Source: an uncultured Planktomarina sp. (GTDB lineage: Bacteria > Pseudomonadota > Alphaproteobacteria > Rhodobacterales > Rhodobacteraceae). From it: 64,000 bases of DNA. Each line of letters opens with the position of its first letter. The stretch's first letter is position 1. The position numbers were made by a program, and so were the translations under genes. Below, piece after piece: positions 38,707 to 61,657 of this stretch. Below the pieces are notes generated by a model that did no database searches, had not been told where the DNA came from, and saw only the letters and a list, made by a program, of their open reading frames with translations. The DNA is taken from NCBI GenBank assembly GCA_905182535.1, contig CAJJBZ010000016.1, forward strand, positions 1 to 64,000, read 5' to 3'.

Positions 38707-38707
38707 A

Positions 38708-43848: not shown

Positions 43849-43884
43849 ATAAAAAAAGTGGCGTGTTATTAAAATGCGCCACTT
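43849..43884 (-). terminator. Rho-independent terminator of the acyl-CoA synthetase operon
   Basis: Arms AAGTGGCG (43856-43863) and CGCCACTT (43877-43884) with a 13-base loop. Read on the minus strand, the stem overlaps the synthetase stop and is followed by a T run (43851-43857). On the plus strand no T run follows, so it serves mainly the leftward operon, though it may also help stop proV transcripts. Confidence 0.7.
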
Positions 43885-45976: not shown

Positions 45977-47133
45977 GCACCAAGGGGCCTAAGAATTGAT
46001 CGCGTAATAATATGGCGCTGTATCTCAGAAGTGCCATCCCAAATGCGCTCTAATCGGCTATCACGCCAGAACCGTTGGATTGGCATCTCTTCCATTAGCC
46101 CCATACCACCAAAAATTTGCACAGCATCATCTGCTATTTTGTTCAGCATTTCGGAACAGAACACCTTTATCATAGCAGCGTCAGCATCACTCATCTCACC
46201 TTTCTCAGCACGAGCTACAGCGTCTTTGACCAACAGCTCGGCTGCACGCAGGTTAATTGCACCATCTGCCAAGCGAAAACCAGTTGCCTGAAATGTCCCA
46301 ATGGGTTTGCCAAATTGTTTTCGGGTTGCCGCCCAATTTGTAGCCATGTCCAAGATACGCTCAGCCTTGCCACAGCAAGTTGCACCCACCCAAATGCGGC
46401 CCATGCCTAACCACTTGCCAGCCAGATCCAAGCCGAGACCCTCTTCCCCCAGAACCTGTGCTTTACTCAATCGAACATCGTCAAAATGCAGTTCAAAAGT
46501 TTTATACCCTCGATAGCTAATACAACGGGTCCCTTCTCTGCAGTCAAAACCATCTGTCCCCACGTCTACCAAAAAAGCAGTGACCCGTTTACGAGGGCCC
46601 CGCGGAGTTTCATCTTCGCCTGTCGCCGCAAAGACGATGGCAAAATCAGGCATGCAAGGGCCTGAGATGAAATGCTTAGAACCGTTTAGTATCCAATCAT
46701 CGCCATCACGCCGCGCGTTTGATTTCATGCCCATGACGTCAGATCCTGCATCAGGTTCAGACAACGCAAACAACTCTCGTTTGTCTCCACGTACCGCAGG
46801 AAAAAGGTAACGCTCACGTTGATCTCCTTCACACGCCATCAGCAACTCTGTCGGACGCGCCGCCCAACTTTGCAGTGCGTGGCTAGTTTTGCCATATTCA
46901 CGCTCAATCAGTGACATTGGCCCATAGCTCAGACCGCCGCCTCCGACCTCTTCTGGCAAATTGCATGCAAAGAGGCCAAGCTCTTTGGACTTAGCTTCAA
47001 TCGCACGACCTATGTCCTCCGGAACATGGCCCATACGATCGACTTCCTCCTCATGTGGAAACATCTCAGTCTCAACAAAACGACGGACTGTACTTACCAA
47101 TAGGTCTATTTCATGATTTGTTTCAATGGTCAT
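45973..47133 (-). CDS. Acyl-CoA dehydrogenase (possibly gamma-butyrobetainyl-CoA)
   Basis: A 386-residue FAD acyl-CoA dehydrogenase with N-terminal helical, middle beta and C-terminal helical domains. Family stretches are LFALSEPDAGSDVMGMKS, WILNGSKHFISG and IQIFGGMGL-like VQIFGGMGLMEE. The C-terminal catalytic-base motif reads RIWDGTSEIQRHI, with Asp where most members have Glu (YEGTSEIQR); this occurs in some subfamilies but deserves note. The gene overlaps the downstream synthetase gene by four bases. In this context it would introduce a double bond in gamma-butyrobetainyl-CoA to give crotonobetainyl-CoA, the substrate of CaiD encoded at 50.3 kb. That role is inferred. Confidence 0.85.
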   Translation of the reverse strand: MTIETNHEIDLLVSTVRRFVETEMFPHEEEVDRMGHVPEDIGRAIEAKSKELGLFACNLPEEVGGGGLSYGPMSLIEREYGKTSHALQSWAARPTELLMACEGDQRERYLFPAVRGDKRELFALSEPDAGSDVMGMKSNARRDGDDWILNGSKHFISGPCMPDFAIVFAATGEDETPRGPRKRVTAFLVDVGTDGFDCREGTRCISYRGYKTFELHFDDVRLSKAQVLGEEGLGLDLAGKWLGMGRIWVGATCCGKAERILDMATNWAATRKQFGKPIGTFQATGFRLADGAINLRAAELLVKDAVARAEKGEMSDADAAMIKVFCSEMLNKIADDAVQIFGGMGLMEEMPIQRFWRDSRLERIWDGTSEIQRHIITRSILRPLGA

Positions 47134-47300
47134 GGAAGCCTCGCTTAATTAATTTATGCAGCAATTTACACTTTTGGATATCAAATAACAAATGCAAGAA
47201 AGATTATCAGAATCAACGTTATACGCTATTATTTTCTTTCTGATTTTTTTGCCCGTTTTGTAGGTATCATAGAATTTTAAATCTACCAGACCGCACAATA

Positions 47301-48189
47301 TTAGCCATCAGCGCCCCGCAACTTTAGCTTGTTACGAGCTTGCTGTGGCGTAACCAAGCGCCCACCCATGCGCTCGATAATTTCGCGAGCTCTGGTAACT
47401 AACTGCGCATTCGTAGCCAACACACCACGGTCAAGGTAGATATTGTCTTCCAAACCAACACGCACGTTACCCCCCATAGCGACCGCTGCCGCCAGCATCG
47501 GCATCTGGCCACGACCAATCCCAAAACTTGCCCAGCTCGCATCTGTAGGCAACTGAGCCTTCATTGCTGCCATAGTCTCAACAGTTTGCTCTGCGCCCCA
47601 AGGGATACCAAGGCAAAGCTGGAACATAGGAGGGCCATCGATCAAACCTTCAGCAATCATAGCTTTTGCAAAACGGATGTGACCCAAATCAAAGACCTCT
47701 AGTTCAGGTTGGACGCCCCATTCGCGCGCTAATGTGGCCATTTTGCGTAATGTAGGTGGCGTTGAAATATAGATCATATCTGTATCTGAAAAATTCAACG
47801 TACCACAATCAAGCGAACAAATTTCAGGCAAACACTCCTTGATGTGGGCCAGCCGGTCTTCTGGACCTATCATATCAGTTCCAGGTCCAGGCATCGCCGG
47901 ATTTGAGGGGTCCGAAACCCAGTCTCCACCCATCCCGGCTGTAATATTGATCACCACATCAGTGTCACTATCTCTTACTCGATCAATAATTTCTTTAAAT
48001 AATTTATTTACGCGACCCCTGCCCAGTTTCAGGATCCCGCGCATGGATATGGGCGATTGCCGCGCCAGCTTTTGCCGCCTCAATTGCTGCATCAGCTATC
48101 TCTTTTGGTGTCACCGGTACGTGTGGACTTTTTCCGGTAGTATCCCCCGCCCCTGTGACCGCACAGGTCAACACCACATCATAGTTCAT
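47301..48189 (-). CDS. BKACE (DUF849) beta-keto acid cleavage enzyme, frameshifted
   Basis: A zinc-dependent enzyme that condenses a beta-keto acid with acetyl-CoA and splits off acetoacetate; one member cleaves 3-dehydrocarnitine to betainyl-CoA. The zinc histidines are in [13 protein letters not shown], and the C-terminal [11 protein letters not shown] motif is intact. An extra G at about 48018 (GGGG for GGG, in [13 protein letters not shown]) breaks the frame; the corrected length is about 295 residues, standard. Divergent from the CdhR-like regulator and near carnitine dehydrogenase, it is very probably the dehydrocarnitine cleavage enzyme. Acetoacetate released could enter the CoA-transferase at 19.3-20.6 kb. 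Confidence 0.85.
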
Positions 48190-48249
48190 TTAAACGTACT
48201 CCCTTTCTGTAGAGTGGTGCTGAGGGATGAAAGATTTTTGTCGATTATC

Positions 48250-48274
48250 CGCCATACATGCTGCTATAATGGCG
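48250..48274. promoter_or_regulatory. Inverted repeat in the BKACE / regulator divergent region
   Basis: CGCCAT (48250-48255) and ATGGCG (48269-48274) are separated by 13 bases, about 30 bases before the regulator start and 60 before the BKACE start. The spacing and place fit an operator for the AraC/GlxA-type regulator. No binding data can be inferred. Confidence 0.35.
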
Positions 48275-48305
48275 AAAAAACGTACCTGCGTGGGGGGCCA
48301 TAAAA

Positions 48306-49376
48306 ATGGAAATTGATATTTTACCTAAAATGAGGCCGGCACCAACACATATGATTTTTATTGTCGTTCCAAGGTTCAACATTACAACCTTAATCACGAT
48401 GATTGAGACAATTCGAATCGCAAACTATTTAGCCCCAGCTCCGATATTCTCATGGGAAGTTGCCTCATTTGACAGTGAAAAAGTGTCTGCAAGCAATGGA
48501 ATGACAACAACTGTTGCGGTTGCCGATGACAAGCTCCAACCTGCTGAATTTATTTTTATTCTAGGCAGTTGGGGTACTGAATATTACACAAACCGCAATC
48601 TAACGGCATGGCTCAGAAAACGAGCGCGAGCGGGTGAACGTGTCTGTGGCGTTGAGTTGGGTTGCTATATTATTGCGCGTGCCGGTTTGTTGGATGGAAA
48701 GGCAGCGACAACACATTGGTCATGGCTTAACGGGTTCAAAGAGAATTTTAATCGTGTCGAAGTTCAGGAAAGCCTCTTCACAATGGACAGTAAAGTAATG
48801 ACTTGTTCAGGCGGATTAGCAGGGGTTGATTTAATGTTGCGCCTGATAGAGGAAATTAGTGGCAGCAGTTTTTCTGGTGAAATTGCTGATCAGATGCTGC
48901 ACCACCCAATCCGTAGTGCAACATCTCCCCAGCGCAGTACAATGGGGCGAGGCACTGAAACAATGCTGCCTCTATTACGTGAGGCGATGACGTTAATTGA
49001 AAATAACATAGAGGAGCCTTTAACCGTGCCTCAGGTCGCAAAGTTTTTAGGTGTCTCACAAAGACAATTAGAGAGGCAATTTAGAAAAAATGTTGGGTGT
49101 ACAGTGGTCCAATTTGGTCTTTTACGACGGTTACAAAACGCCCGCCTGCTGCTAATCTCAACTGAACTTAGCATCCGTCAGATTGCCACCGCTTCTGGCT
49201 TTAACACGCTGTCCCACTTCGCCTACTCATTCGGAAAATTTTTTGGCCGTCGCCCTTCAGATTACCGAGAAGCATGGCCAGAAAATGAGCCTGCTCCCAG
49301 CTGGCCGGGTTCACTATCTGATTTTCTTGATACGCTGAATGAGGCAGTCGAAAAGGATCACTTCGATCGTACCTGA
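48306..49376 (+). CDS. cdhR: GlxA/CdhR-family transcriptional regulator
   Basis: A 356-residue regulator with an N-terminal DJ-1/PfpI (class I glutaminase-like) domain (HMIFIVVPRFNITTL; cysteine-containing VCGVELGCYIIARAG) and a C-terminal AraC DNA-binding domain with two helix-turn-helices (VPQVAKFLGVSQRQLERQF; IRQIATASGFNTLSHFAYSF). CdhR of Pseudomonas, the activator of carnitine catabolism, has this build. Here it sits between BKACE and carnitine dehydrogenase genes, so it probably activates both in response to carnitine or dehydrocarnitine. The start at 48306 follows a G-rich tract. Its 3' end overlaps the convergent dehydrogenase gene by 19 bases. Confidence 0.8.
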   Translation: MEIDILPKMRPAPTHMIFIVVPRFNITTLITMIETIRIANYLAPAPIFSWEVASFDSEKVSASNGMTTTVAVADDKLQPAEFIFILGSWGTEYYTNRNLTAWLRKRARAGERVCGVELGCYIIARAGLLDGKAATTHWSWLNGFKENFNRVEVQESLFTMDSKVMTCSGGLAGVDLMLRLIEEISGSSFSGEIADQMLHHPIRSATSPQRSTMGRGTETMLPLLREAMTLIENNIEEPLTVPQVAKFLGVSQRQLERQFRKNVGCTVVQFGLLRRLQNARLLLISTELSIRQIATASGFNTLSHFAYSFGKFFGRRPSDYREAWPENEPAPSWPGSLSDFLDTLNEAVEKDHFDRT

Positions 49377-50309
49377 CGCAACGCGTTCAGAACACCTACT
49401 ATTTCTCGGTCACGTTGCGCCACCATCTCCTCAAAGTTGTTATCGCCAGCGACGGCATTGCAGCCATTTACCATTCGGTCGCGGAGTTCCTGGGTCAGCT
49501 CCGGTGCCTCCAAACGGGTCCATGGCAGCTTCAGGGCAGGACCAAATTGATCCAGATTGGTTGCCATTCCACCTTCACCACAAGCAACGTGGAAGGCCAT
49601 ACATTGCCCCTGAGAAACCATTCGGGGCGCAGGCCCGTTCATTAATGCGATATCGATATCTTCTGGTGTAGCCTCACCGTTGGCGACCATATGTAATGCC
49701 TCCCGCCAAAGCGCCTCTTGAAGGCGGGTAGCTACGAAGCCTGGGATCTCTTTCTTCATCAGCAGAGGGGCTTTCCCTGCAACTTCGTAGAATTCTCCCG
49801 CCCAAGCAACCGCCTCTGGTGCAGTTTTCTTACCTCCCACAATCTCAACCAGCGGCAAAAGATATGGAGGGTTGAACGGGTGGCCAATTACAGTGCGTTC
49901 TGGTGTCATGCAAGTCAGCCTGAATATCACTCATCATCAAACCAGATGTAGACGAGCCGATTATAACCGAGGGTGGCAGGATTGCACCCAACTGTGCGTA
50001 GAGAGCTTGTTTGATATCCAACCGCTCAGGTCCACTTTCTTGCACAAATTCGGCAGCCTCAAGCGACTCTTCCAAATCAGTTACAATCCGTAAGCGATCC
50101 AGCGACGCGCCAGGCGCAAGCCCCAGTTCAGTCAGACTTCTCCATGCCGTGTTAAGGATTGACATGAAAGCAGGTGTTTCTGCCTCGTCATGCAAATAGG
50201 CAGTGACATCGAAGCCCCGCGCTAGGAAATGTGCTGTCCAACCACCACCAATTGGGCCCGCACCCAAGCTGGTGACGCGTGTGACCGTTTTTGGGTCACG
50301 ATACATCAT
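49358..50309 (-). CDS. lcdH: L-carnitine dehydrogenase (3-hydroxyacyl-CoA dehydrogenase family), frameshifted
   Basis: An NAD-dependent dehydrogenase of the 3-hydroxyacyl-CoA family, oxidising L-carnitine to 3-dehydrocarnitine. The NAD motif is VTSLGAGPIGGGWTAHFLAR at the N-terminus; the catalytic histidine is in RTVIGHPFNPPYLLPLVEIV, where the NPP-LVE run is typical. An extra T at about 49912 (TT for T before CMTPERTVIG) breaks the frame; the corrected length is about 316 residues. Unlike many relatives it has no fused thioesterase domain, so betainyl-CoA hydrolysis must be done by another protein. ATG 50309 overlaps the caiD stop (ATGA). Last gene of the leftward operon from 53.7 kb. Confidence 0.85.
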
Positions 50310-51109
50310 TCACCCTTAAATTTGGGTTCACGCTTTTCGACAAATGCTGCTACGCCTTCTTTAGCATCGTTGGATTTCAGCATTTTACGATAGGCGGGCA
50401 TCGGTTCCGTCCGCATTTTGTGAAAAGCTTTTTCCAGAGAGACACATTCAATTTCGCGTTGTACTTCCTTAACTGACTGCATCGCCAACGGGGCAGACCA
50501 AGCAATCGAGGCAGCCCACTCACGTGCCGTTTGCATCAGGTTCTCTTTAGGTACGACCTTGTTGACTAACCCGTAGTGGGCAGCCTCAGCGGCTGTCATT
50601 CGCCGCCCCAGCAAGAACATCTCCATTGCAATATTATGTGGAATGCGACGTGGCAAACGTTGAAGTGCACCTGCATCAGGTACAATTCCAAGAGGCATTT
50701 CAGGCAGACCGAACTCCACATGATCAGCAGCAATTAGAAGATCACATCCCATAGCCATTTCAAAACCCCCACCAATCGCCAACCCGTTAATAGCGGCAAT
50801 AACTGGTTTGTTCAAAGCCCAGTTTTCTGTCAGTCCAGTAAAACCTCCAAAACCATACTCATCAGCTTCCCACCAATTATCGAGCTGCATTTCACCCTCA
50901 TTTAAGGCCTTCAGGTCCCATCCAGCAGAAAATATCTTATCGCCCCCACCTGTAAGGATGGCGCAGCGTAGTTCTTTGTCCTCATGTAGCTCCTGAAACG
51001 CTGCTGCAAGTGCCTGCGACGTATGTACATCAATAGCATTCACCTTGCCGCGCTCTAGTGTGACCTCTAATATGTGTCCATCACGGCTGACCTTTACACC
51101 ATCTGACAT
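50306..51109 (-). CDS. caiD: Crotonobetainyl-CoA hydratase (CaiD-like)
   Basis: A 267-residue enoyl-CoA hydratase/crotonase with close likeness to E. coli CaiD, which hydrates crotonobetainyl-CoA to carnitinyl-CoA. Shared runs are FSAGWDLKALNEGE, GGFTGLTENWALNKPVIAAI, GGGFEMAMGCDLLIAADH, LPEMPLGIVPDAGALQRLP and the C-terminal AFVEKREPKFKG. The oxyanion-hole glycines are in GLAIGGGFE. It joins gamma-butyrobetaine/crotonobetaine activation to carnitine dehydrogenation and overlaps lcdH. Preceded by the luciferase-like monooxygenase gene at a 10-base distance. Confidence 0.88.
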   Translation of the reverse strand: MSDGVKVSRDGHILEVTLERGKVNAIDVHTSQALAAAFQELHEDKELRCAILTGGGDKIFSAGWDLKALNEGEMQLDNWWEADEYGFGGFTGLTENWALNKPVIAAINGLAIGGGFEMAMGCDLLIAADHVEFGLPEMPLGIVPDAGALQRLPRRIPHNIAMEMFLLGRRMTAAEAAHYGLVNKVVPKENLMQTAREWAASIAWSAPLAMQSVKEVQREIECVSLEKAFHKMRTEPMPAYRKMLKSNDAKEGVAAFVEKREPKFKGE

Positions 51110-51119
51110 GAAAAGCTCC

Positions 51120-52154
51120 TTATTTGAATTCTGGGATTACTTCGTTGCAGAACATCTGCAACGATCGTTTTTGAGCTGCGTGATCAAGCCCCATAGAGGC
51201 ATAATAAATGAACTCATCTACGCCCAACATCTGATAACGCTTGAGCTTTTTGATCACAGTATCAGGGGAACCAAACATCAGGTTTTCCTCCAACATTAAA
51301 GGGTCGTATTGTTCGCGGCCCTCTAACTCATGAAGTGGGATCTCTTTCGGAAACCCGTTTTTAACGTCGCCAAGATTACGGTATAAGTTTTCGAATTGCC
51401 CCAAAACACGTGTAATAGCGTTGATTGCCTTATCGCGGTCCGACTGATTTTCATACAAGGCAGTATGGCGCATCAGTGCAAAAATTGGGTTCGCAGTACC
51501 ACCATGTTTTGCAATGGATTCATCCAAATGCCGTCTGTACAACTCGGCCTCAGCATGTGGACGCGTGAACGGCCAACACATGATATTAGCATTATTAGCA
51601 ACAGCATAATCATAAGTGATCGGTGATCTAGCTGCTACCCAAATTCGAGGATCAGTTTGCAAGGGCTTTGGCACTGAAGTTGAGGTCGGAAACTGCCAAT
51701 ATTCCCCCTCATGCGCATAATCTCCCTTCCACAGAGCCAGGACGGCAGGCAGCATTTCTTGCATATATTTATACCCATCAGACTGAAGTAAACCAGGCTT
51801 CATCCTATCAAACTCACGCTGATACGCCCCAGATCCGATACCAAATTCCAATCTGCCACCACTAATCAAATCAAGGAACGCAGCTTCCCCTGCTAGCTTA
51901 ATTGGATGCCAATAGGCTGCATTGACACAAGCCGTTCCAAGTCTAATTTTATTAGTCTCCCCAGCCCACCATGTCAGTATTTGAAACGGGTTGGGGGCAA
52001 TCGTCATTTCTAGAGCATGATGTTCAGCAGCCCAGACAATCTCAAACCCCCCATCCTCAGCCAGTTGCACCATTTCTAACGTGTGGCGGGCAACATCCTT
52101 CATATTGAGACTACTATCAAGGCGCTCAAGGTTTATAGCTAATTGAAATTTCAT
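51120..52154 (-). CDS. Luciferase-like (LLM class) flavin-dependent monooxygenase
   Basis: A 344-residue TIM-barrel monooxygenase of the bacterial luciferase superfamily, which needs reduced flavin from a separate reductase and oxidises or opens C-N, C-S or ring bonds. Family marks are GGFEIVWAAEHHALEMTIAP, IRLGTACVNAAYWHPIKLA and GGRLEFGIGSGAYQREFDRM. Relatives of this build include RutA (uracil ring opening) and TgnB (trigonelline ring opening). ATG 52154 follows AAAGGAATTCTAAG. It is second in the leftward operon ALDH-LLM-caiD-lcdH. Flavin reductases at 56.2 and 63.3 kb are the obvious partners. The substrate is unknown. Confidence 0.85.
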   Translation of the reverse strand: MKFQLAINLERLDSSLNMKDVARHTLEMVQLAEDGGFEIVWAAEHHALEMTIAPNPFQILTWWAGETNKIRLGTACVNAAYWHPIKLAGEAAFLDLISGGRLEFGIGSGAYQREFDRMKPGLLQSDGYKYMQEMLPAVLALWKGDYAHEGEYWQFPTSTSVPKPLQTDPRIWVAARSPITYDYAVANNANIMCWPFTRPHAEAELYRRHLDESIAKHGGTANPIFALMRHTALYENQSDRDKAINAITRVLGQFENLYRNLGDVKNGFPKEIPLHELEGREQYDPLMLEENLMFGSPDTVIKKLKRYQMLGVDEFIYYASMGLDHAAQKRSLQMFCNEVIPEFK

Positions 52155-52228
52155 CTTAGAATTCCTTTTGTAAGTATGGAACAAATCCACCGCTCTTAGC
52201 GATTATAAATTTAATTAGCATACCAAAA

Positions 52229-53710
52229 TCATCGCATCACAAAGGGATTTGCCATTGGCTCATCAGAGGTATTCATCCAAATTGTTTTAGGCCGAGTGTA
52301 ATCATAAATTGCTTGAAAACCACTTTCACGACCATGGCCAGATCCTTTGACACCACCAAACTCAGCAATCGGTGAAACAACGCGGTATGTGTTCACCCAA
52401 ACTATCCCTGCGCGTACTGCGTTGGCCATCCGAAGGGAACGGGCCGCGTTTTGAGTGAATATTCCAGCCGCCAACCCAAGTTCAGAGTCATTGGCAAGCT
52501 CCAGCACCTCTTCCTCAGTCTTAAAGCGCTGCACTGACAAAACAGGCCCAAACAATTCGGTGTCAACAATACGCAAATCCTGACGCGGGCATTCGATGAT
52601 TGTAGGCTCATAAAATAAACCACCCATGCCTTCAGGTTGCTTTCCCCCTACAAGTATTTTTCCACCTTGTTCTTGAGCATAGGCCACCTCACGCTGAATA
52701 TTTTCCAATTGGCTAATTGTGCATAGCGGACCCATTTGTGTCTCTTCGGCCAGCGGGTCACCAATAACGATTTGGCGCGTAAGGGCAGTTATCTTTTCAA
52801 GAAACTCATCTGCTATGCCTTCATGCAGATACAGCCGGGATCCAGCAACACAGCTTTGACCCGTCGCACCAAATATTCCCGCAATCGAGGCATTAACTGC
52901 GCTTTCTATATTTGCGTCATCAAACACGATAAACGGAGATTTTCCACCAAGCTCCAACGAAACCTCTGCAAAGTTACGTTTAACATTTTCCAATACGTGG
53001 CGCGCAGCACTTGGCCCACCGGTGAAGGACACCCGCGCAACCAATGGATGCCCTGTTAGCGCGCGGCCACATGGCTCACCGTGGCCTGTGACGATGTTGA
53101 CAACCCCTGGCGGTATGCCGGCCTCTTTGATCAGTTTACCAAAATCTAGCATCGCAGCACTGGCATGTTCAGAGGCTTTCAGTACCACAGTATTACCTGC
53201 GGCCAAAGCCGGTCCTAATTTAACCGCCACCAAAAATAACTGCGAGTTCCATGGCACAACCGCTGCGACAACACCGAGGGGTTCACGTTTGGTAAACACG
53301 AACATGTCAGGTTTATCGATTGGCAGGGTCTCACCATTAACTTTATCTGCACAGCCAGCAAAAAAGTGGAAAAAATCAGCGATGTACTTAGCTTGCCAGC
53401 GAGTTTCCTTTAGCATTTTACCAGTATCAATAGACTCGGTACGCCCCAAGCCTTCAGATTTCTCGGCCAATAAGTCTCCTAATTTCCGCAGACACTTGCC
53501 ACGCTCTGTTGGCGTAAGTTTAGACCATGGACCTTTGGTAAACGCGAGATGTGCAGTTTCAACAGCAAGATTTACATCGGCTTCTGTTGCTTCTGGAATG
53601 CGGCTCCATATTTCACCTGTGGTGGGATTCACACTGTCAAACGTACCGCCATCTGATGAATCAACCCAGTCACCGTTAATCAACATTTGATAGTTTTTTA
53701 TATCGCTCAT
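52229..53710 (-). CDS. Aldehyde dehydrogenase (betaine aldehyde dehydrogenase-like)
   Basis: A 493-residue NAD(P)-dependent aldehyde dehydrogenase. The catalytic glutamate is in VSLELGGKSPFIVFDDAN and the nucleophilic cysteine in GATGQSCVAGSRLYL; the cofactor loop FTGGPSAARHVLENV is in place. It resembles betaine- and 4-trimethylaminobutyraldehyde dehydrogenases, as well as the semialdehyde dehydrogenases of N-methylpyridinium pathways. It is the first gene of the leftward operon; the divergent region towards RidA is 139 bases. Oxidation of trimethylaminobutyraldehyde to gamma-butyrobetaine would fit the carnitine genes; oxidation of a ring-cleavage aldehyde would fit the monooxygenase. Confidence 0.85.
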   Translation of the reverse strand: MSDIKNYQMLINGDWVDSSDGGTFDSVNPTTGEIWSRIPEATEADVNLAVETAHLAFTKGPWSKLTPTERGKCLRKLGDLLAEKSEGLGRTESIDTGKMLKETRWQAKYIADFFHFFAGCADKVNGETLPIDKPDMFVFTKREPLGVVAAVVPWNSQLFLVAVKLGPALAAGNTVVLKASEHASAAMLDFGKLIKEAGIPPGVVNIVTGHGEPCGRALTGHPLVARVSFTGGPSAARHVLENVKRNFAEVSLELGGKSPFIVFDDANIESAVNASIAGIFGATGQSCVAGSRLYLHEGIADEFLEKITALTRQIVIGDPLAEETQMGPLCTISQLENIQREVAYAQEQGGKILVGGKQPEGMGGLFYEPTIIECPRQDLRIVDTELFGPVLSVQRFKTEEEVLELANDSELGLAAGIFTQNAARSLRMANAVRAGIVWVNTYRVVSPIAEFGGVKGSGHGRESGFQAIYDYTRPKTIWMNTSDEPMANPFVMR

Positions 53711-53751
53711 TCCAACCGTCCTCCGTTGTACTTTAACTATTCATGGCTGCT

Positions 53752-53768
53752 TTCACCGCTAGCGTGAA
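53752..53768. promoter_or_regulatory. Inverted repeat in the ALDH / RidA divergent region
   Basis: TTCAC (53752-53756) and GTGAA (53764-53768) flank seven bases, 40 bases upstream of the aldehyde dehydrogenase start. A second small repeat, CGAC...GTCG at about 53777-53791, is next to it. Position suggests an operator controlling both divergent operons. Confidence 0.3.
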
Positions 53769-53849
53769 CGAAAAAACGACGCTGTCTGTCGAAAAATCTG
53801 AAAGTCTTCACTGACTAACAAGGCAACTTGTTTTTAACGGAGGTTCAAA

Positions 53850-54251
53850 ATGGTTAACAAAAAACAAATCATTGGAGGCCCACTCAAAATTGGTGGTCGC
53901 GTTCTGTCGCTCTCAAAAGCGATCCGCGCGGGAGATTTTGTATTTCTAACAGGACAGATCCCAATGCGCGACGGCGTGCCTATGACTGATGGTACAGTAG
54001 AGGAGCAAACTCGTGCCGTTCTCAACGACATAACCGCCACTCTGGCCGAGGCGGGTTGCAGCCGTGATGATGTAGTTAAAGCAATGGTCTGGCTTCGGGA
54101 CCGAGCCGACTTCCCCGGTTTCAACGAAATTTATGGTGAATACTTCCCAGTCAAACCACCCACACGATCCGCCATTGTCAGCGATCTACTGGTAGATGCA
54201 CGGGTCGAGGTTGAGATTATGGCCTACCGTCCCCTGGGGGATCATAGCTGA
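53850..54251 (+). CDS. RidA/YjgF/RutC-family protein
   Basis: A 133-residue RidA-family protein; such trimeric proteins hydrolyse reactive enamines and imines, and RutC of the uracil pathway is one. The segments AIRAGDFVFLTGQIPMRDG and VVKAMVWLRDRADFPGFNEI, plus the C-terminal ARVEVEIMAYRP with the conserved arginine and glutamate, are clear. ATG 53850 follows AACGGAGGTTCAAA, a strong site. The stop shares a base with the alpha/beta hydrolase start. It begins the rightward operon and likely deals with an enamine made by ring or C-N cleavage. Confidence 0.88.
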   Translation: MVNKKQIIGGPLKIGGRVLSLSKAIRAGDFVFLTGQIPMRDGVPMTDGTVEEQTRAVLNDITATLAEAGCSRDDVVKAMVWLRDRADFPGFNEIYGEYFPVKPPTRSAIVSDLLVDARVEVEIMAYRPLGDHS

Positions 54252-55051
54252 TGTCTTTTACGCCAGACGGCACAAAGTTTGAATTAACAGGTCCAGCGGA
54301 TGCGCCTGTTGTAGTTTTGATCCACGGGCTTGGATTGAGAAAAGAGTGTTGGCAATGGACCACTCCTGCCTTGATAGACGCTTACCGCGTCTTGAGCTAT
54401 GATCTTCACGGACATGGTGGATCTTTAGTACCTCCGGAAACTGCTAATCTTTCTATGTTCTCAACTCAATTGAGCGGACTTCTTGATCATTGCGGAGTTG
54501 GACGGGCAACCATTATAGGTTTTTCATTGGGGGGAATGATCGCACGCCGCTTTGCGCAAGATGTACCACAGCGAGCAAACGCGCTGATCATTTTACATTC
54601 CCCACATAGACGTAGTGAAGAAGCGCAGGAAGCGATCTTAAAACGGGTACATCAAGCCCAAGAAATTGGCCCTCAGTCTACAGTTGAAGCGGCGCTTGAT
54701 CGTTGGTTTACTAAAAAATTTCGCGTAACAAACCCCGACCTAATGGAGACTGTTCGTGGATGGGTGCAGGCCAACCAAAAGTCAATTTATCATACTATCT
54801 ATCGTGTGCTTGCGACAGGAATCGACGAGATTGTTGCTCCAAGCCCAGCCATCACCTGCCCTGCGCTCGTCATCACCAGCGATGAAGATCATGGTAATGG
54901 CCCAGAAATGGCCCACGCCATTGCTGAAGAAATTTCAGGCGCTAAGACACTAATACTTTCCAATTTGCGGCACATGTCGTTGGCCGAGGAACCTGAGGCC
55001 GTTAATCGGCCAATAAGACAGTTTCTTGACAGTCTGGATTTATTGGCGTGA
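54251..55051 (+). CDS. Alpha/beta hydrolase (RutD/PcaD-like)
   Basis: A 266-residue alpha/beta-fold hydrolase. The oxyanion motif is VVLIHGLGLRKECWQW, the nucleophile elbow IIGFSLGGMIARRFAQ (serine), an acid residue is near VITSDEDHGN, and the catalytic histidine is in NLRHMSLAEEP. It is like 3-oxoadipate enol-lactonase PcaD and RutD. It starts at the last base of RidA (TGATG) and its stop overlaps the GTG start of the CoA-transferase, so all three are translated together. It could hydrolyse a lactone, carbamate or CoA thioester; betainyl-CoA thioesterase is one possible role because lcdH lacks that domain. Confidence 0.85.
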   Translation: MSFTPDGTKFELTGPADAPVVVLIHGLGLRKECWQWTTPALIDAYRVLSYDLHGHGGSLVPPETANLSMFSTQLSGLLDHCGVGRATIIGFSLGGMIARRFAQDVPQRANALIILHSPHRRSEEAQEAILKRVHQAQEIGPQSTVEAALDRWFTKKFRVTNPDLMETVRGWVQANQKSIYHTIYRVLATGIDEIVAPSPAITCPALVITSDEDHGNGPEMAHAIAEEISGAKTLILSNLRHMSLAEEPEAVNRPIRQFLDSLDLLA

Positions 55052-56223
55052 GTACGAAGATTTTGAAAGGGCTGCGAGTACTTGATCTCAGTCGGATGCT
55101 GTCTGGGCCCTATTGCACAATGCATCTAGCCGATCATGGCGCTGAGGTAATCAAGATTGAAGATGGCCGTGGCGATACGAGTCGCGGCAACGGGCCATTC
55201 CGAGACGACGATCCCACCCAGGACTGGGCAGGTTATTTTGTAAGCCTTAACCGTGGTAAAAAGAGTATCCAGATAGATTTAAAATCGCCAGAAGGCTATA
55301 CAAATTTTTGTAAACTTGCGCTGCATGCAGACGTAATCGTCGAAAATTTTCGCCCCGGCGTAATGGAGCGTTTGAATCTATCATACGAATCTCTTGCGGC
55401 CAAAAATCCGAAACTAGTTTACGCTGCCATACGTGGCTTTGGTGATCCACGAAGTGGTACTAGCCCGTATGAAAAATGGCCATCTTATGATGTTGTAGCT
55501 CAGGCAATGGGCGGCCTGATGGCGATGACCGGCCCGGATGCAAATACCCCAACCAAAACTGGCCCCGGCGTTGGAGATATTTTTGCAGGTATGATGATGG
55601 CCTTTGGCATTATGGCAGCTTTGCGCGAGGCTGAGGCGACGGGCAAAGGACAATTCGTAGATGTTGCCATGTATGATGCCATGATTTCGCTTTGCGAACG
55701 AATGGTTTATCTGCACGATATGACCGGTAATGTCCCAGGTCCAGAGGGCAATGGCCATCCATTCCTCGCCCCTTTTGGGTTGTTTCCAGCCAAGGACGGA
55801 CACATTGCGCTTGGCATTGTTGACGATGCCTTTTGGCAACAATTGGCCACTCTTATGTGCCGTAATGATCTGGTTGGAGATGCGCGATTTGCAACCCGTG
55901 CGGCGCGGGCGGCCAATGCAGCTGAACTGAATTCACTAGTAGCCAAGTGGTCTATTTTATACAGTAAGGATGAGCTCACTGCCAAGCTAGGCGGTGCGGT
56001 CCCCTACGGTCCAATGAACAACATGGCTGACATCGTCCAAGACCCTCATGTGATTGCAAGGGGAATGCTGGCCCAAATTCAAGGCCCGTTACCCAATCAA
56101 GAACCATGGACTATCGCCGCTAATCCACTGCGGTTTAGCGCGCATGGTCACGGCCCCCTTACCACCGCGCCGGCTCTGGGTGCAAATAACAACCTGCTAG
56201 AGGGACTTTCTTCGGTCAAAAAA
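55048..56223 (+). CDS. CaiB-like class III CoA-transferase (in frame with the next domain)
   Basis: A class III CoA-transferase (CaiB/formyl-CoA transferase family) of about 390 residues. Typical runs are LRVLDLSRMLSGPYCTMHLA, AEVIKIEDG, DVIVENFRPGVMERL, the region of the catalytic aspartate GVGDIFAGMMMAFG, and QFVDVAMYDAM. It would pass CoA between carnitine-type or other organic acids, as CaiB does between gamma-butyrobetaine/crotonobetaine and carnitine. The start is GTG 55048 overlapping the hydrolase stop (GTGA). In the sequence as given it continues without a stop into a flavin reductase; a one-base change in the A7 run at 56218-56224 would instead end it at about 56240. Confidence 0.85.
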
Positions 56224-56682
56224 ATGGACTACAAAGATAAGTGCCTACTGCGCGATACATTTGGCAGCTTTGCCACAGGCAGAACTATTGTGACAACCTG
56301 CCAACCAAACGGACAACCACGCGGATTAACTGCTAGCTCCTTCACTTCCGTTTCACTAGATCCGCCGCTACTTTTAGTTTGCATCGCCAAGGAAGCTCTA
56401 TCGTGTAACACGCTTGAAAACGCAGATTATTTTGCAGTCAATATTCTTGCCAGCGACCAAAAAGAGATTTCCAGTCTGTTTGCTTCACAATCAGCCGAGA
56501 AGTTCAAGATCACCAAGTGGCGAGCCAATACACAGAAGATACCACTGATTGAAGGCACTGTGGCTAATTTCAGTTGCGCACGGCACCGTTTAGTGGATGG
56601 AGGTGATCATCTGATCTTAATGGGGGAAGTGCTGAGCTTTGAGGTACGTCAGGGAACGGCTCTTGGCTATGATAGTGGTTAG
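56224..56682 (+). CDS. Flavin reductase family protein (RutF/HpaC-like), apparently fused to CaiB-like
   Basis: About 152 residues of a flavin reductase domain that supplies reduced FMN or FAD to a two-component monooxygenase. RDTFGSFATGRTIVTTC and GLTASSFTSVSLDPPLLLVC are characteristic, as is FAVNILASDQKEISSLFA. It has its own ATG (56224) with GAGGGAC 17 bases upstream, so it is probably a separate gene; the in-frame join to the CoA-transferase may be due to the A7 run. It is the natural partner of the luciferase-like monooxygenase in the divergent operon. The C-terminus is a little short. Confidence 0.8.
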   Translation: MDYKDKCLLRDTFGSFATGRTIVTTCQPNGQPRGLTASSFTSVSLDPPLLLVCIAKEALSCNTLENADYFAVNILASDQKEISSLFASQSAEKFKITKWRANTQKIPLIEGTVANFSCARHRLVDGGDHLILMGEVLSFEVRQGTALGYDSG

Positions 56683-56773
56683 TACTTTGGTATCGGACAT
56701 GAAACTGAGGATACAAGCGTTGTAAATCCCCTCACAAGGCACCAAAATAATAAAATCTAGTAGGAGAAAAGCT

Positions 56774-57382
56774 ATGCTTCCCGAATTACGAAAAGTTATC
56801 ACTTTTGACGAACAAATTCATAGCGAAGGAGGACGTAAGTCAGACCCGGTTTTACGCATGATTGGTGTAGCAGCTGTCGTAAAAAATCCTTGGACAGGCA
56901 GGGGTTTTGTAGAAGATTTGTCACCTGAGATAAAGCGAATGGCTCCATTTCTAGGTGAGCTGCTGTCAGATCGCCTGATTGAACTGGCAGGATCAGGCGA
57001 TGCCATTGAGGCCTATGGAAAGGCCTGTATAGCCGGCACCAGCTGCGAAGTTGAGCATGCTTCCGCTCTGATCCACACATTACAGTTTGGCAATTTCTAC
57101 CGTGAAGCGGTTGGCGCCAAAAGTTACCTTGGCTTTACCAACACCCGTGGTCCAGCAAACACACAAATTCAAATCCCTCTAATGGATAAACATGATACCG
57201 GACGGCGCTCGCACTACCTGACAGTACAGTTTTCAATTTATGATGCGCCAGGAGTTGACGAATTAGTTGTCGCTCTGGGTGCCGCAACCCGCGGTCGTCC
57301 ACATCACCGGATTGGAGATAGGTATTCGGATCTAGCTGCCATGGGGCGCGATGTGGACAATCCAGCAGGCGTTGCGGACTAA
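56774..57382 (+). CDS. Amino acid synthesis family protein (PF06684-like)
   Basis: A 202-residue protein of the so-called amino acid synthesis family, whose biochemical role is not established. Recognisable runs are VAAVVKNPWTGRGFVEDLSP, EVEHASALIHTLQFGNFYRE, TNTRGPANTQIQIPLMDK and GAATRGRPHHRIGDRYSDL. The histidine-rich conserved patches suggest a metal or polar ligand site. ATG 56774 follows TAGGAGAAAAGCT. It ends the rightward operon. Homologues are often encoded near luciferase-like monooxygenases and flavin reductases, as I recall, so it probably has a direct role in the same pathway. Confidence 0.8.
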   Translation: MLPELRKVITFDEQIHSEGGRKSDPVLRMIGVAAVVKNPWTGRGFVEDLSPEIKRMAPFLGELLSDRLIELAGSGDAIEAYGKACIAGTSCEVEHASALIHTLQFGNFYREAVGAKSYLGFTNTRGPANTQIQIPLMDKHDTGRRSHYLTVQFSIYDAPGVDELVVALGAATRGRPHHRIGDRYSDLAAMGRDVDNPAGVAD

Positions 57383-57879: not shown

Positions 57880-59093
57880 TTAACCAGGGCTAAGCCCACG
57901 CAGCCTCTCGGAGCGCCTTCGTAGCAGCTCAAGTGTCATAAGTAACAGAACAGAGATACCAACCAGTATAGTGGCTACAGCCAAAATAGTAGGACTAATT
58001 TGTTCACGAAGACCTATAAACATTTGCCACGGAAGCGTTTTTTGACTGGCCGAACCAATAAACATTACAACAACAACTTCATCAAACGATGTAATAAACG
58101 CAAATAATCCACCAGAGATAACACCAGGCATAATCAACGGCATCTGAACCTTAAAAAAGGTTTTCAAGGGACCAGCTCCCATGTTAGCTGCAGCGCGCGT
58201 AAGGGATTTATCAAAACCAACGAGCGTTGCTGTAACTGTTATAATGACAAAAGGAATGCCCAAAACTGCGTGTGCCAGAATTACTTTGACGTAGCCAACC
58301 AAGTTTTTATCAAGCCCTAAGGTATTCTCCATAAAGTTACCCAGGGTCGAGTAGAAGAAGAACATACCCATCGCCGAAATAATCAGAGGCACAATCATAG
58401 GAGAAATAAGGATAGCCATAATTGCCCGTTTGGCCGGGACGTGGCTTTGACTGAGCCCAATTGCAGCAAGCGTTCCAAGCGAAACGGAAATAATCGTCGC
58501 AATTGGAGCAATTATTAATGAGTTCCAAAACGAACGTTGCCAATCAGAGTTGTTAAAAAAGTCCTGATAATGCTTAAGGGAATAGCCTGCAGGATCCAGC
58601 CGCAGCATTTCAGGAGTAAAAGTAAAAAAGTCCTGAGCGTTGAAAGACAAAGGCATCACAACGAGAATAGGCGCAATCAAGAAAACAAAGACCATACCGC
58701 AAATCACTCTAAAACTATAATACCACAATACCTGTCCAGAGGTGAGATAGGGGTGCAACTTCGCGCGGTAGCCACCTTCGTAAATCCAATAGAAGAACCA
58801 ACCAAAAAACCATCCGAACAGCCCGCCAAAAAATGCACTAACAGGACCTAAAAATACGATCCCAAAAATAGCGAAAAGAACAGGTAAAGTTCTACGAATA
58901 TTTTTCGAGCTAAAATATTCGTTTGAAGTCATTAGATAAGCAAGAAACACAGAGACTATTGCGAAAGAAAGAAGCCAAAGTCTTTTGGGTTCAAATCCCA
59001 TCCAAAAAGTAAACCAAAAAACGCCCCCATAAGCCCCATCATAAGCAATACAAAAGACAAAGAGCGACGCGATACCTCATTAAATACAGCCAT
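57880..59093 (-). CDS. potC: ABC transporter permease, PotC-like, frameshifted, with N-terminal extension
   Basis: An inner-membrane permease of spermidine/putrescine-type systems, about 404 residues after correction against 260-280 for PotC. The C-terminal 270 residues are PotC-like, with the ATPase-contact loop AANMGAGPLKTFFKVQMPLI and FITSFDEVVVVMFI. The extra N-terminal 130 residues contain three to four hydrophobic segments, with FFGGLFGWFFGWFFYWIYEG at about 95-115. The start is ATG 59093, four bases before the potB stop region; one T is missing at about 58993 (GWDFEPKRLW). Last gene of the leftward transporter operon. Confidence 0.82.
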
Positions 59094-59097
59094 TTTG

Positions 59098-60372
59098 TTA
59101 ACCCCCCAGCTTTACGTTGTCTATTCCAACAATTTTGTCATAGGCCCAATACAGAATTAATACGGCTACCAGCAAAATTGTTCCAAGTGCGGCGGCCAAC
59201 CCCCAATTCATTGACTGAAAAATATGGTAAGCTATTCGGTTAGAAATAAAGACGCCCTTGTTACCACCCACTATCTCGGGTGTGATATAGTAACCGATTG
59301 AAAGTATGAAAACTAAGATAGATCCAGCTCCAATTCCAGGCACAGATTGTGGAAAATAAATCCGCCAAAAAGCGGTCCAATTGGTTGCACCAAGAGATTT
59401 TGCTGCCCGCAAATAAGTGGGCGAAATAGACTGCATGACAGAATACATGGGCAGGATCATAAAAGGCAATAAAATATGTGTCATCGCAATGACGGTGCCT
59501 AGCTGATTATTTATCAAAGCCAAACGGCCAGTTTCTTCAATCATACCTAGTGCCACCAGAAGGTCGTTGATAACTCCCTGCTGTTGTAACATGACTTTCC
59601 ATGCAGACGTACGGACAAGCAAAGATGTCCAGAAAGGTAAGAGAACCAAAATCATCAAAAGATTGGCCTGTCGCATTGGTAAGTTGGCAAGAAGCCACGC
59701 CACCGGGTAAGCCAATAAGATACATGACATCGTTATCACCAAAGATATAATCAGCGTTCGTTTAAAAAGTGTCACCAAAATCTGTCTATCTTCAGGCTGA
59801 TATTCTGGCCCAGAGACTGTCTTACGCATATCGATAGAGTTTAAAAAATATCCACTGGTATACAGCGAACTGTGAGTTTTAAGAGTTTGCCAGACGGCAA
59901 TATCTGCCCATCCCTTATGGGTTTCTATCAGCTTATTTTTAAAAGGTGCATCCGCCTCAAGATCCCATTTTTTTGCCTTTCGAGCAGTCTTTTTGAAGAG
60001 AGACGCCATACCAGATTTTTCATAATTCAAACGCAGGCCAACCCTCGTGTGATCTTTTGCTTTTGCTGCTCGCTGAATGTCTCCTGCAAAAGCTGAATAC
60101 ACGGTTTCATCAGGCAATTCGCCCGATTGAGCATCCCAACTGCTCAAGGCCACAACAGTTTCCGGCAATATTTCCGAGACAATGTCATTTTCAACCGAGC
60201 GAAAAAGCATAGAAGCAAAAATTAAAGCTAAAGTAAATAAAACAAATATAAGTAGCGGAGATATCAGGAGTAAAGCCCGTATTTTTTGCCGCCTAAGCGC
60301 TATTGCTAAGCTTTTTTTAAGGGGTGTTCCATCAACAGTCATCATTGGACGGTGTTCGTCAGTATAGCTCAT
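59098..60372 (-). CDS. potB: ABC transporter permease, PotB-like, with long periplasmic loop
   Basis: A 424-residue PotB-type permease, about 130 residues longer than the usual 285-300. After a first membrane segment (about 30-58, ALLLISPLLIFVLFTLALI) comes a charged periplasmic stretch of about 140 residues before the usual five segments. The ATPase-contact loop is RAAKSLGATNWTAFWRIYFP. The extra loop may help in substrate or binding-protein contact. ATG 60372 follows GGGGGCACT. It is separated from the binding-protein gene by a hairpin and from potC by four bases. No damage. Confidence 0.85.
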   Translation of the reverse strand: MSYTDEHRPMMTVDGTPLKKSLAIALRRQKIRALLLISPLLIFVLFTLALIFASMLFRSVENDIVSEILPETVVALSSWDAQSGELPDETVYSAFAGDIQRAAKAKDHTRVGLRLNYEKSGMASLFKKTARKAKKWDLEADAPFKNKLIETHKGWADIAVWQTLKTHSSLYTSGYFLNSIDMRKTVSGPEYQPEDRQILVTLFKRTLIISLVITMSCILLAYPVAWLLANLPMRQANLLMILVLLPFWTSLLVRTSAWKVMLQQQGVINDLLVALGMIEETGRLALINNQLGTVIAMTHILLPFMILPMYSVMQSISPTYLRAAKSLGATNWTAFWRIYFPQSVPGIGAGSILVFILSIGYYITPEIVGGNKGVFISNRIAYHIFQSMNWGLAAALGTILLVAVLILYWAYDKIVGIDNVKLGG

Positions 60373-60420
60373 AGTGCCCCCATAGTCGGCTTAACTTATC
60401 AAATAGCCAAACAAATTAAG

Positions 60421-60442
60421 AAAAGGGCCAGAAGGCCCTTTT
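60421..60442 (-). terminator. Hairpin between potD and potB (attenuator)
   Basis: A perfect 9-base stem, AAAAGGGCC (60421-60429) with GGCCCTTTT (60434-60442), and a 4-base loop. On the minus strand it follows the binding-protein gene and has a TTTT tail from its own arm. It probably lowers expression of the permeases relative to the binding protein, like the hairpin after proX. Confidence 0.65.
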
Positions 60443-60456
60443 CAATTTTGAGTTTT

Positions 60457-61548
60457 TTATTTTGCAAGCCAAGCTTGGAACTTAGACTCTATGTCGTCTT
60501 TATAATCCGCCCAAAAAGCGTAGTTCATAAGGAACGTATTTGTCGAGTTTGCAGGATCAGTTGGCATGTGAGGCGCCATGTCGATACCTAGTTCCGCATG
60601 CTTATCAACCAACAGGGCTGATGACGCACGAGTCGGGCCATAGCTGATCCATCTGGACTGATCTGCAAGACGCTGTGTGTCAGTTGCAAATCTCACATAG
60701 TGCAGCGCACGTGCTTGACGCTCTGGGCTAAGACCAGTTGGAATAATCCAGCCGTCAAGATCATAAATTTGACCGTCCCAAAGCATTGAAACTGGCTGAT
60801 TTTGCTCTTCGATCAAGGCAAATAAGCGACCATTGAAAGTAGAGCCCATGACGACTTCGCCATCGGCAAGCAATTGTGGTGTATCGGCACCAGCTGACCA
60901 CCAGATCACGTCATCTTTGATGGTATCAAGTTTAGCAAGAGCTTGATCCTGACCAGCGGCAGTTTCCAACATCGGATAAATGTCTGCTTTAGCTACGCCA
61001 TCACACAATAGCGCCCACTCCATATTGGAAAGAGCACCCTTTTTTAACGAACGCTTGCCAGGATACGTTTCGGTATCAAAAATCGCACAGATGCTTGTTG
61101 GAGGCGTACTGCCAACCATATCGTTACGATAGCCCACTGTGTATGAATAAACGATTTGTGGAATAAAGCAGTCTGATACGATGAAATCACCGAAGTCATT
61201 TGAAGCAAGAGTTCCGTCTGGTGCGTCGGCCAACATGAAATCGTGATCGATTTCCATTGCAAGACCTTCGTCGCAAAGCTGCATTGCTGGACCAGCTTCA
61301 ACGTCGACGACATCCCAGGTTAGGTTGCCAGCTTCTTTCATAGCACGCAATTTTGGGACGGCTGTACCGGCACTTTCATCATTAATGATAGTGACGCCAG
61401 TATTTGCCGTGTAGGGTTCATGATAAGCTTTAAGTTGTGATTTTGAATAAGCACCACCCCAAGAAACGATAGTCATTTCCTCGGCAAGTGCTAATCCTGC
61501 AAATAGCGAAAGTGCCGCCGTTGCAAAAACAGTTTTTGTAAATTTCAT
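60457..61548 (-). CDS. potD: ABC transporter substrate-binding protein, PotD-like
   Basis: A 363-residue periplasmic binding protein. The signal peptide MKFTKTVFATAALSLFAGL is cleaved near ALA-EE. The mature protein begins EEMTIVSWGGAYSKSQ and is of the PotD/PotF class. Residues such as VIWWSAGADTPQLLADGEV line the ligand region; an exact ligand cannot be read, and polyamines, aminobutyrate or N-methyl compounds are all possible. ATG 61548 follows GTGGGAGAATGTA. Placed beside the monooxygenase/carnitine operons, it may import their substrate. Confidence 0.88.
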   Translation of the reverse strand: MKFTKTVFATAALSLFAGLALAEEMTIVSWGGAYSKSQLKAYHEPYTANTGVTIINDESAGTAVPKLRAMKEAGNLTWDVVDVEAGPAMQLCDEGLAMEIDHDFMLADAPDGTLASNDFGDFIVSDCFIPQIVYSYTVGYRNDMVGSTPPTSICAIFDTETYPGKRSLKKGALSNMEWALLCDGVAKADIYPMLETAAGQDQALAKLDTIKDDVIWWSAGADTPQLLADGEVVMGSTFNGRLFALIEEQNQPVSMLWDGQIYDLDGWIIPTGLSPERQARALHYVRFATDTQRLADQSRWISYGPTRASSALLVDKHAELGIDMAPHMPTDPANSTNTFLMNYAFWADYKDDIESKFQAWLAK

Positions 61549-61657
61549 TACATTCTCCCACACGTCCCGTTCTTTATGAAAAAAAATTGCGTTACGGGTT
61601 AAACAGCAAATTCTTTATATTCGCCTACTATCAAGCAGACGATATGGCTTGCAGCGC

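Follow-up and report, generated by a model that had tools for sequence, protein, structure and literature searches.

We describe a gene cluster at 43883-57382 of a 64,000-nucleotide stretch of DNA, hereafter the window, from an uncultured Planktomarina sp. (contig CAJJBZ010000016.1 of assembly GCA_905182535.1). The cluster combines a putative ring-opening core, built around a luciferase-like flavin monooxygenase (LLM), with a module of coenzyme A (CoA)-linked genes resembling those of gamma-butyrobetaine and carnitine breakdown. It is real and conserved, its arrangement recurring among Alphaproteobacteria, closely and distantly related alike, and on two plasmids. On balance, we favour reading it as one regulon, in which ring opening of the trigonelline (Tgn) type is coupled to a CoA route other than that of carnitine. 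We assign the CoA steps to the same system because of a gene fusion, a shared promoter motif and a one-way dependency of the CoA module on the oxygenase. The set looks like a means of degrading a cationic ring compound from algae, and homarine (N-methylpicolinate) is a possible substrate of the core, which we put forward tentatively. The genome bin carrying the window comprises 2.39 Mb and is 74% complete.

Linkage of the CoA module to the oxygenase

We searched a family sample of 394 genomes and a class sample of 376 genomes (fetched loci and genomes are labelled L and G, respectively) for relatives of the LcdH-like 3-hydroxy acid dehydrogenase (49358-50309, minus strand), the CaiD-like enoyl-CoA hydratase (50306-51109, minus strand) and the LLM (51120-52190, minus strand; PF00296, 181 bits). 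An LcdH-like gene of at least 60% identity was present in 17 family genomes, all 17 with an LLM at the same locus, and 22 of the 39 family genomes with an LLM of at least 60% identity had no LcdH-like gene. The class sample gave the same picture: all 7 genomes with an LcdH-like gene of at least 59% identity also carried an LLM of at least 54% (5 within 10 kb, 2 on other contigs), and 6 of the 13 genomes with such an LLM had no LcdH-like gene. This co-occurrence corresponds to Fisher p values of 1.9e-19 (family) and 8.6e-12 (class), computed with cut-offs picked after the lists had been seen and uncorrected for relatedness. Close CaiD homologs were found in 17 of the 394 family genomes (18 copies), every copy at an LLM locus, and the LLM adjoins the gene for a beta-keto acid cleavage enzyme (BKACE) in L143, L145 and L150, three genomes from a single distant family. 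Thus, in the samples searched, the LcdH/CaiD branch depends on the LLM in one direction only.

The LLM-linked LcdH proteins form a single branch in a quick tree (SH-aLRT 99) and, judged by sequence, the CoA module is sister to the gamma-butyrobetaine/carnitine route. Locus L151 carries an LLM-linked set and, adjacent to it, a second complete set, the LcdH of which passes the carnitine 3-dehydrogenase model NF005716 (739.7, cut-off 592); genome G482 likewise has both kinds of set. Furthermore, for each of the 6 genomes other than that of the window that have an LLM-linked LcdH, the class search lists a further LcdH at 40-50% identity. None of the 29 other LcdH loci fetched, which are part of the class-search listing, had an LLM, aldehyde dehydrogenase (ALDH), RidA, hydrolase or AA_synth gene at the thresholds used. 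A 4HBT-type thioesterase domain was detected in 8 of the 15 other LcdH loci examined; a single-sequence search, which could overlook distant members, found it in none of 34 LLM-linked loci, nor in the window between 40 and 64 kb.

The LLM-linked LcdH proteins of L031, L144 and L151 (set 1) scored 305-317 against the L-carnitine dehydrogenase model NF005471 (cut-off 414) and 251-266 against NF005716, and the best model for the CaiD-like proteins, crotonobetainyl-CoA hydratase, gave 301 bits for the window and 305 for a second protein, below its cut-off of 500. Only four LcdH positions are specific to the branch, and their comparison gave no substrate conclusion. The CoA genes probably lie outside the carnitine route, and their annotation as "carnitine genes" would probably be wrong. 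The earlier note on this DNA had described the CoA-linked steps as shared with carnitine breakdown; that they belong with the oxygenase is supported by the fusion, the motif and the dependency, and the sharing becomes doubtful in view of the sister branch and of the two genomes with an extra carnitine-type set. Glycine betaine as substrate of the LLM is disfavoured, none of the 29 other LcdH loci having an LLM of at least 35% identity (L168 has a 25% match).

The two halves of the cluster are physically joined in one protein. A frame of 544 amino acids (55048-56682, plus strand) encodes a class III CoA-transferase (approximately residues 1-381) followed by a flavin reductase domain (406-537). 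The earlier note, which had gene kinds and coordinates right, had taken these for two genes. Among 29 loci examined, the fusion is in frame in all 20 with a full-length CoA-transferase of at least 57% identity, and all 20 retain the aspartate that we presume to be catalytic. In L020 and in L018, a short contig, the region with this aspartate is lost and the reductase kept, and the CoA module was not found there. The fusion partner of the reductase is the hydrolase in L016, L019, L074 and L075, of which L016 and L075 probably represent one contig. The best model for the CoA-transferase is succinyl-CoA:mesaconate CoA-transferase (405 bits, below the cut-off of 700), and against the L-carnitine CoA-transferase CaiB (cut-off 413) the window scored 113.8 and L031 134.3, so that the former label "CaiB-like", in the sense of a carnitine enzyme, is not supported. 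Beside the Aminobacter plasmid copy of the cluster, which has no fused CoA-transferase, we noted an operon (L030:4850-10093) for MmgE/PrpD, acyl-CoA dehydrogenase, CoA-transferase, MaoC and CoA ester lyase, with electron transfer flavoprotein genes beyond it.

A promoter motif is shared by both modules, which a GbdR-like regulator (48306-49376, plus strand; 235.7 bits, cut-off 480) would control. The half-site of the motif is TTTTTCGNCA and its full form TTTTTCGNCA-N5-TGNCGAAAAA. Allowing up to one mismatch, and at loci with the regulator, it occurs in 24 of 25 ALDH/RidA regions (31 sites vs 2.7 expected) and in 22 of 23 regulator/BKACE regions (28 vs 1.9), the motif having been discovered and tested on the same loci. 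Exact half-sites number 0.96 per 10 kb at loci with the regulator, 0.35 at loci of the window's type without it nearby, and 0.10-0.21 at loci of clades A2 and C (see below) and other LcdH loci, uncorrected for base composition. The window has two half-sites, both on the minus strand: TTTTTCGCCA (48270-48279), between the regulator and BKACE genes, and TTTTTCGACA (53787-53796), within the 139-base ALDH/RidA divergent promoter region (53711-53849). They are notable solely for their placement in two promoter regions, and the full inverted repeat is absent at both with up to 3 mismatches allowed. The GbdR-like regulator may act through the shared motif.

The remaining CoA genes lie left of the leftward operon (ALDH, LLM, CaiD-like, LcdH-like) and are divergent from the regulator. 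They encode BKACE (47301-48189), an acyl-CoA dehydrogenase (ACAD, 45973-47133) and an ADP-forming-type acyl-CoA ligase of 697 amino acids (43883-45976), which the ACAD gene overlaps by 4 bases; all three are on the minus strand. The ligase homolog of L031 matches the acetate and 3-hydroxypropionate CoA ligase models, both below cut-off. The unit is thus larger than the range 50306-57382 of the earlier note, outside which lie LcdH and the genes from 43883 to 49376. The overlaps of 1-4 bases claimed there exist between CaiD and LcdH (4), RidA and hydrolase (1) and hydrolase and CoA-transferase (4); the other junctions are spaced by 10 (LLM/CaiD), 38 (ALDH/LLM) and 91 bases (AA_synth, 3' of the fusion gene).

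A frameshift near 49911-49924 splits the LcdH gene, and the BKACE frame is broken near 48010-48029. By eye, overlapping open frames reveal further apparent splits at 24280-24394 and 27444-27447. Together with those in 47301-50309, they suggest indel errors in this assembly.

The oxygenase core and its clades

The core comprises, besides the LLM and the reductase domain, an ALDH (52229-53710, minus strand) and, in the rightward operon, a RidA-type enamine/imine hydrolase (53850-54251), an alpha/beta hydrolase (54251-55051) and, after the fusion gene, an AA_synth protein (56774-57382; PF06684, DUF1185, the TgnF family), all three on the plus strand. The true start of the LLM is probably at 52154, since Met13 is conserved across clades.

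In 49 of the 394 family genomes, a protein search found LLM relatives with E values of 1e-80 or below. A quick LLM tree of 87 rows, together with neighbourhoods annotated by tblastn, separated four clades. In A1, to which the window belongs, ALDH-LLM is divergent from RidA-hydrolase-reductase-AA_synth, usually with CaiD, LcdH and BKACE. A2, nested inside A1 in the tree, has a simple ALDH-LLM-AA_synth-hydrolase operon, in some cases with a reductase or transporter. The order is reductase-ALDH-LLM-hydrolase-carboxymuconolactone decarboxylase in B, and AA_synth-hydrolase-reductase-LLM-ALDH in C, where 11 of the 14 loci include a GntR regulator; examples of clade C are on S. meliloti pSymA (about 8 kb from noeB), in R. 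johnstonii and on an Acinetobacter plasmid.

Clade members were counted at set identity thresholds, with family-sample loci for A1 and A2 and plasmid loci included for B and C; some counted loci end at contig ends, and L090 and L107, which combine an A1-type LLM with an A2-type operon, were counted apart. RidA is confined to A1 among the four clades (16 of 21 loci, against 0 of 20 in A2, 0 of 6 in B and 0 of 14 in C). CaiD and LcdH are each present in 17 of the 21 A1 loci and in none of the other three clades. LLM, reductase, ALDH, hydrolase and AA_synth co-occur across all four. The earlier note had tied the oxygenase to the rightward genes; the tie holds within A1 (hydrolase 19, AA_synth 17, reductase 17 and RidA 16 of 21 loci) and loosens outside it, as RidA and the CoA-transferase were not found in A2 and six distant genomes showed a partial core.

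Altogether, the core resembles, by its gene families, the trigonelline type of ring opening and not the Rut type. This agrees with the former proposal of a two-component oxygenase of the trigonelline kind, since LLM, reductase, ALDH, hydrolase and AA_synth recur in Tgn-like clusters and AA_synth is of the TgnF family. The window holds all five of these gene kinds. Its LLM is 36-46% identical to the clade C set, assumed to be Tgn-like, and stands on a separate branch from it (SH-aLRT 100).

In an alignment of 44 A1 and 20 A2 LLMs, 138 positions carry the same residue at 90% conservation or more in both clades, and 9 positions differ while being at least 85% conserved within each; 36 positions (at least 90%) set A1 and A2 apart from clade C. 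In L107 and L090, an A1-clade LLM stands with an ALDH and an AA_synth nearest to those of A2. Because LLM genes thus move between A1 clusters and simple A2 operons, the LLMs of both clades probably catalyse the same reaction. The predicted LLM structure (mean pLDDT 75.9) has a luciferase fold, like bacterial luciferase and RslO1; the ten best solved matches of a structure search were 20-23% identical and gave no functional pointer.

LLM relatives of at least 83% identity come mostly from bins named Rhodobacteraceae, Planktomarina and Alphaproteobacteria, with one each from Oceanospirillaceae, Flavobacteriales and Rhizobiaceae. In the Oceanospirillaceae-named bin, LLM DNA (L003:9973-11098 vs window 51094-52216) is 93% identical to the window and 95% to L004 over the gene only, and the nearby ALDH is 61% identical, as in a recent single-gene transfer or an assembly chimaera. 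At L025:7503-14809, a related LLM (63%) without the core adjoins an aminotransferase, with an MTTB-type methyltransferase and urocanase within 7 kb; this LLM perhaps has another substrate.

Adjoining the cluster is an ATP-binding cassette (ABC) transporter (57880-62779, minus strand) with an ATPase, a binding protein and two permeases. Its ATPase recurs in two of the 20 A2 loci, L106 (84% identical) and L101 (79%), and its binding protein is 47% identical in L106 and 70% in L101 over 44% of its length. An osmolyte island picked out by eye (57-1998, 31360-34290, 37648-38802 and 34588-37651) holds genes that look like ornithine cyclodeaminase, PALP, M24 creatinase-like, racemase-like (ectoine breakdown-like) and PutA; PALP, M24 and Amdase genes also flank the A2 operon in L106. 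On the same contig as the window (G000 contig C16, 124-144 kb, L138), tmm, tdm, a dimethylamine monooxygenase set, gmaS and mgsABC lookalikes suggest trimethylamine and methylamine use, judged by eye apart from one Pfam match.

A possible pathway and its alternatives

With reduced flavin supplied by the reductase, the LLM of the core would insert oxygen into a cationic N-methylpyridinium ring and open it. The ALDH would oxidise the resulting aldehyde, the alpha/beta hydrolase would take off the formyl group, and RidA would hydrolyse an enamine or imine with release of methylamine. With homarine, Tgn-like cleavage would lead to the enamine 2-(methylamino)glutaconate, which RidA would convert to 2-oxoglutarate and methylamine.

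The CoA module would be a derived copy of the route from gamma-butyrobetaine to glycine betaine (ligase, dehydrogenase, hydratase, CoA-transferase, 3-hydroxy acid dehydrogenase and BKACE), trimming the acid side chain on the same cation and handing a ring carboxylate to the core. Gamma-butyrobetaine would be to glycine betaine what 3-(N-methylpyridinium-2-yl)propanoate is to homarine, N+ being on the gamma carbon in both. Homarine appears as the best-fitting carboxylate because its carboxyl group sits on the carbon adjoining N+, as in glycine betaine. The acid entering the module could resemble 3-(N-methylpyridinium-2-yl)propanoate, or an unsaturated or hydroxylated version of it; its chain would be shortened to homarinyl-CoA, from which the CoA-transferase or hydrolase would free homarine before the core opens the ring. 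The GbdR-like regulator would govern both modules. Putting the CoA module first explains why it was never seen alone and the core was. All chemical steps, substrates and the order of the modules are inferred, and the complete scheme, a gamma-butyrobetaine-derived CoA route that shortens an N-methylpyridinium with a three-carbon acid chain to homarine for a Tgn-type oxygenase, the halves joined by the fusion enzyme and one operator, is doubtful as a whole. If the cluster uses homarine or a relative, it would mark which marine bacteria consume homarine and would point to a precursor compound not known to us from nature. The fusion and the CoA genes that in these samples always accompany the oxygenase also offer a concrete case of probable misannotation as "carnitine genes".

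Several findings weigh against the reading of one regulon with a CoA route of its own. Among named models, those of carnitine enzymes remain the closest to LcdH and CaiD, and three of the five other LcdH proteins scored (L139, L140 and L152) also miss both carnitine cut-offs, so that missing them says little; of the remaining two, L161 passes NF005471 (453) and L151 set 2 passes NF005716. No genome of the family search had both LcdH kinds at E 1e-70, and the set could therefore be the only carnitine route in that sample. The nearest LcdH proteins outside the branch (G551, 54%; G561, 52%) come from genomes without an A-type LLM, which limits the one-way dependency to the LLM-linked branch. The CoA-transferase is not indispensable, since L074 and L082 carry the CoA module with it absent or shortened, and some complete clusters (L009, L012 and L027) have neither reductase nor CoA-transferase. 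RidA was not found in 5 of the 21 A1 loci, two of them incomplete, and at the fetched loci of the six distant genomes AA_synth and reductase were undetected and the hydrolase was found in two only (L144 and L148). As for the motif, besides its discovery on the loci used for testing, a site is likewise present at 10 of the 18 loci that lack the regulator nearby, and the window's count (2 vs 1.07 expected) is not unusual. LcdH and BKACE, frameshifted in the window, are both intact in the close relative L005. A pyridinium propanoate of the predicted kind is not known to us from nature. Succinate semialdehyde dehydrogenase (SSADH), considered as a marker separating trigonelline from homarine clusters, proved uninformative: it lay close to no more than 2 of the 14 clade C loci, 1 of 6 B loci and 0 of 41 A1 and A2 loci, including 0 of 21 A1.

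Two observations from the literature count against homarine in particular. Heal et al. considered action of TgnA/TgnB on homarine unlikely owing to steric hindrance, and R. pomeroyi grew worse on homarine than on trigonelline (both PMC8269262).

The alternative that survives best, plausible though rather unlikely, holds that two independent pathways are merely co-regulated: one from gamma-butyrobetaine/carnitine to glycine betaine, the other opening homarine or another N-methylpyridinium carboxylate, algae releasing both osmolytes together. CaiD and LcdH, with carnitine enzymes as their best named relatives, would fit it, as would the glycine-betaine-type transporter and other osmolyte genes seen by eye in the window, and common transport and regulation are usual for co-occurring substrates. 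Likewise, the core stands without CoA genes in several lineages (L016-L020, L091 and L093). However, independence would not account for a CoA branch that never occurs without the LLM in our samples, nor for the lack of the core at the 29 other LcdH loci, and it would give G704 and G482 two carnitine sets each. Moreover, the CoA-transferase differs from the carnitine kind and shares one protein with the oxygenase's own reductase, and the single-sequence search found a betainyl-CoA-type thioesterase domain in none of the 34 loci.

The order of the modules could also be reversed. The ring would be opened first, and an acid with a gamma N-formyl-N-methylamino group, a crotonobetaine look-alike, would go through the CoA module for degradation once the CoA-transferase or ligase had activated it. 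The fusion and the one-way dependency fit this order equally well, and the CoA-transferase is nearest to transferases of dicarboxylates (mesaconate, glutarate), such as ring opening and the ALDH would yield. Nevertheless, the ACAD step would be superfluous on an already unsaturated acid, and because the core occurs in several genomes without the CoA module, its product is apparently used there without a CoA route; we regard this order as improbable. Finally, a Rut-like or other amide-ring oxygenase pathway of the pyrimidine type, with which the earlier note had compared the shared kinds of oxygenase, RidA, hydrolase and flavin reductase, can be rejected as very improbable on family scores (RidA 51.1 vs a RutC cut-off of 169.1; hydrolase 70.8 vs 238.5 for RutD; no RutA among the best 25 of 30 LLM families), with AA_synth and ALDH pointing to Tgn.

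Comparison with known systems

The Tgn pathway (tgnA-F of Acinetobacter baylyi) is the closest match to the core. Its gene kinds, as reportedly described by Perchat et al. in 2018, are LLM, flavin reductase, ALDH, alpha/beta hydrolase and AA_synth, and its chemistry involves C5-C6 cleavage, a formamide and succinate semialdehyde. The first step on trigonelline is ring opening by TgnA/TgnB (PMC8269262), and AA_synth is the family of TgnF (PMC7913881). The window cluster likewise groups these five kinds, but it adds RidA and the CoA module, and no SSADH (TgnE) was found nearby.

For homarine catabolism, the likeness lies in the probable substrate class and the marine setting. In samples from a North Pacific transect, homarine reached as much as 3% of the particulate carbon (PMC8269262), R. 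pomeroyi draws it down rapidly (PMC12817926), and its catabolism in environmental bacteria is the subject of Ferrer-Gonzalez et al. 2026 as cited in PMC13390433. The A2 operons may represent this system, and A1 differs from them in also having RidA, the fused CoA-transferase and the CoA module. The hom operon reportedly has about six genes, and the A2 operons could be it; the portions of the literature available to our search held no description of the hom genes.

Rut uracil ring opening shares general enzyme kinds with the cluster, but the window's proteins do not reach its family models. In P. aeruginosa and S. meliloti, carnitine dehydrogenase, BKACE and a thioesterase turn carnitine into glycine betaine (PMC12482172). 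The window resembles this route in its LcdH-like, BKACE, ACAD, CaiD-like, ligase and GbdR-like regulator genes, and differs from it in forming a separate sister branch, in having no detected thioesterase domain and in occurring, throughout our samples, always in genomes with the LLM.

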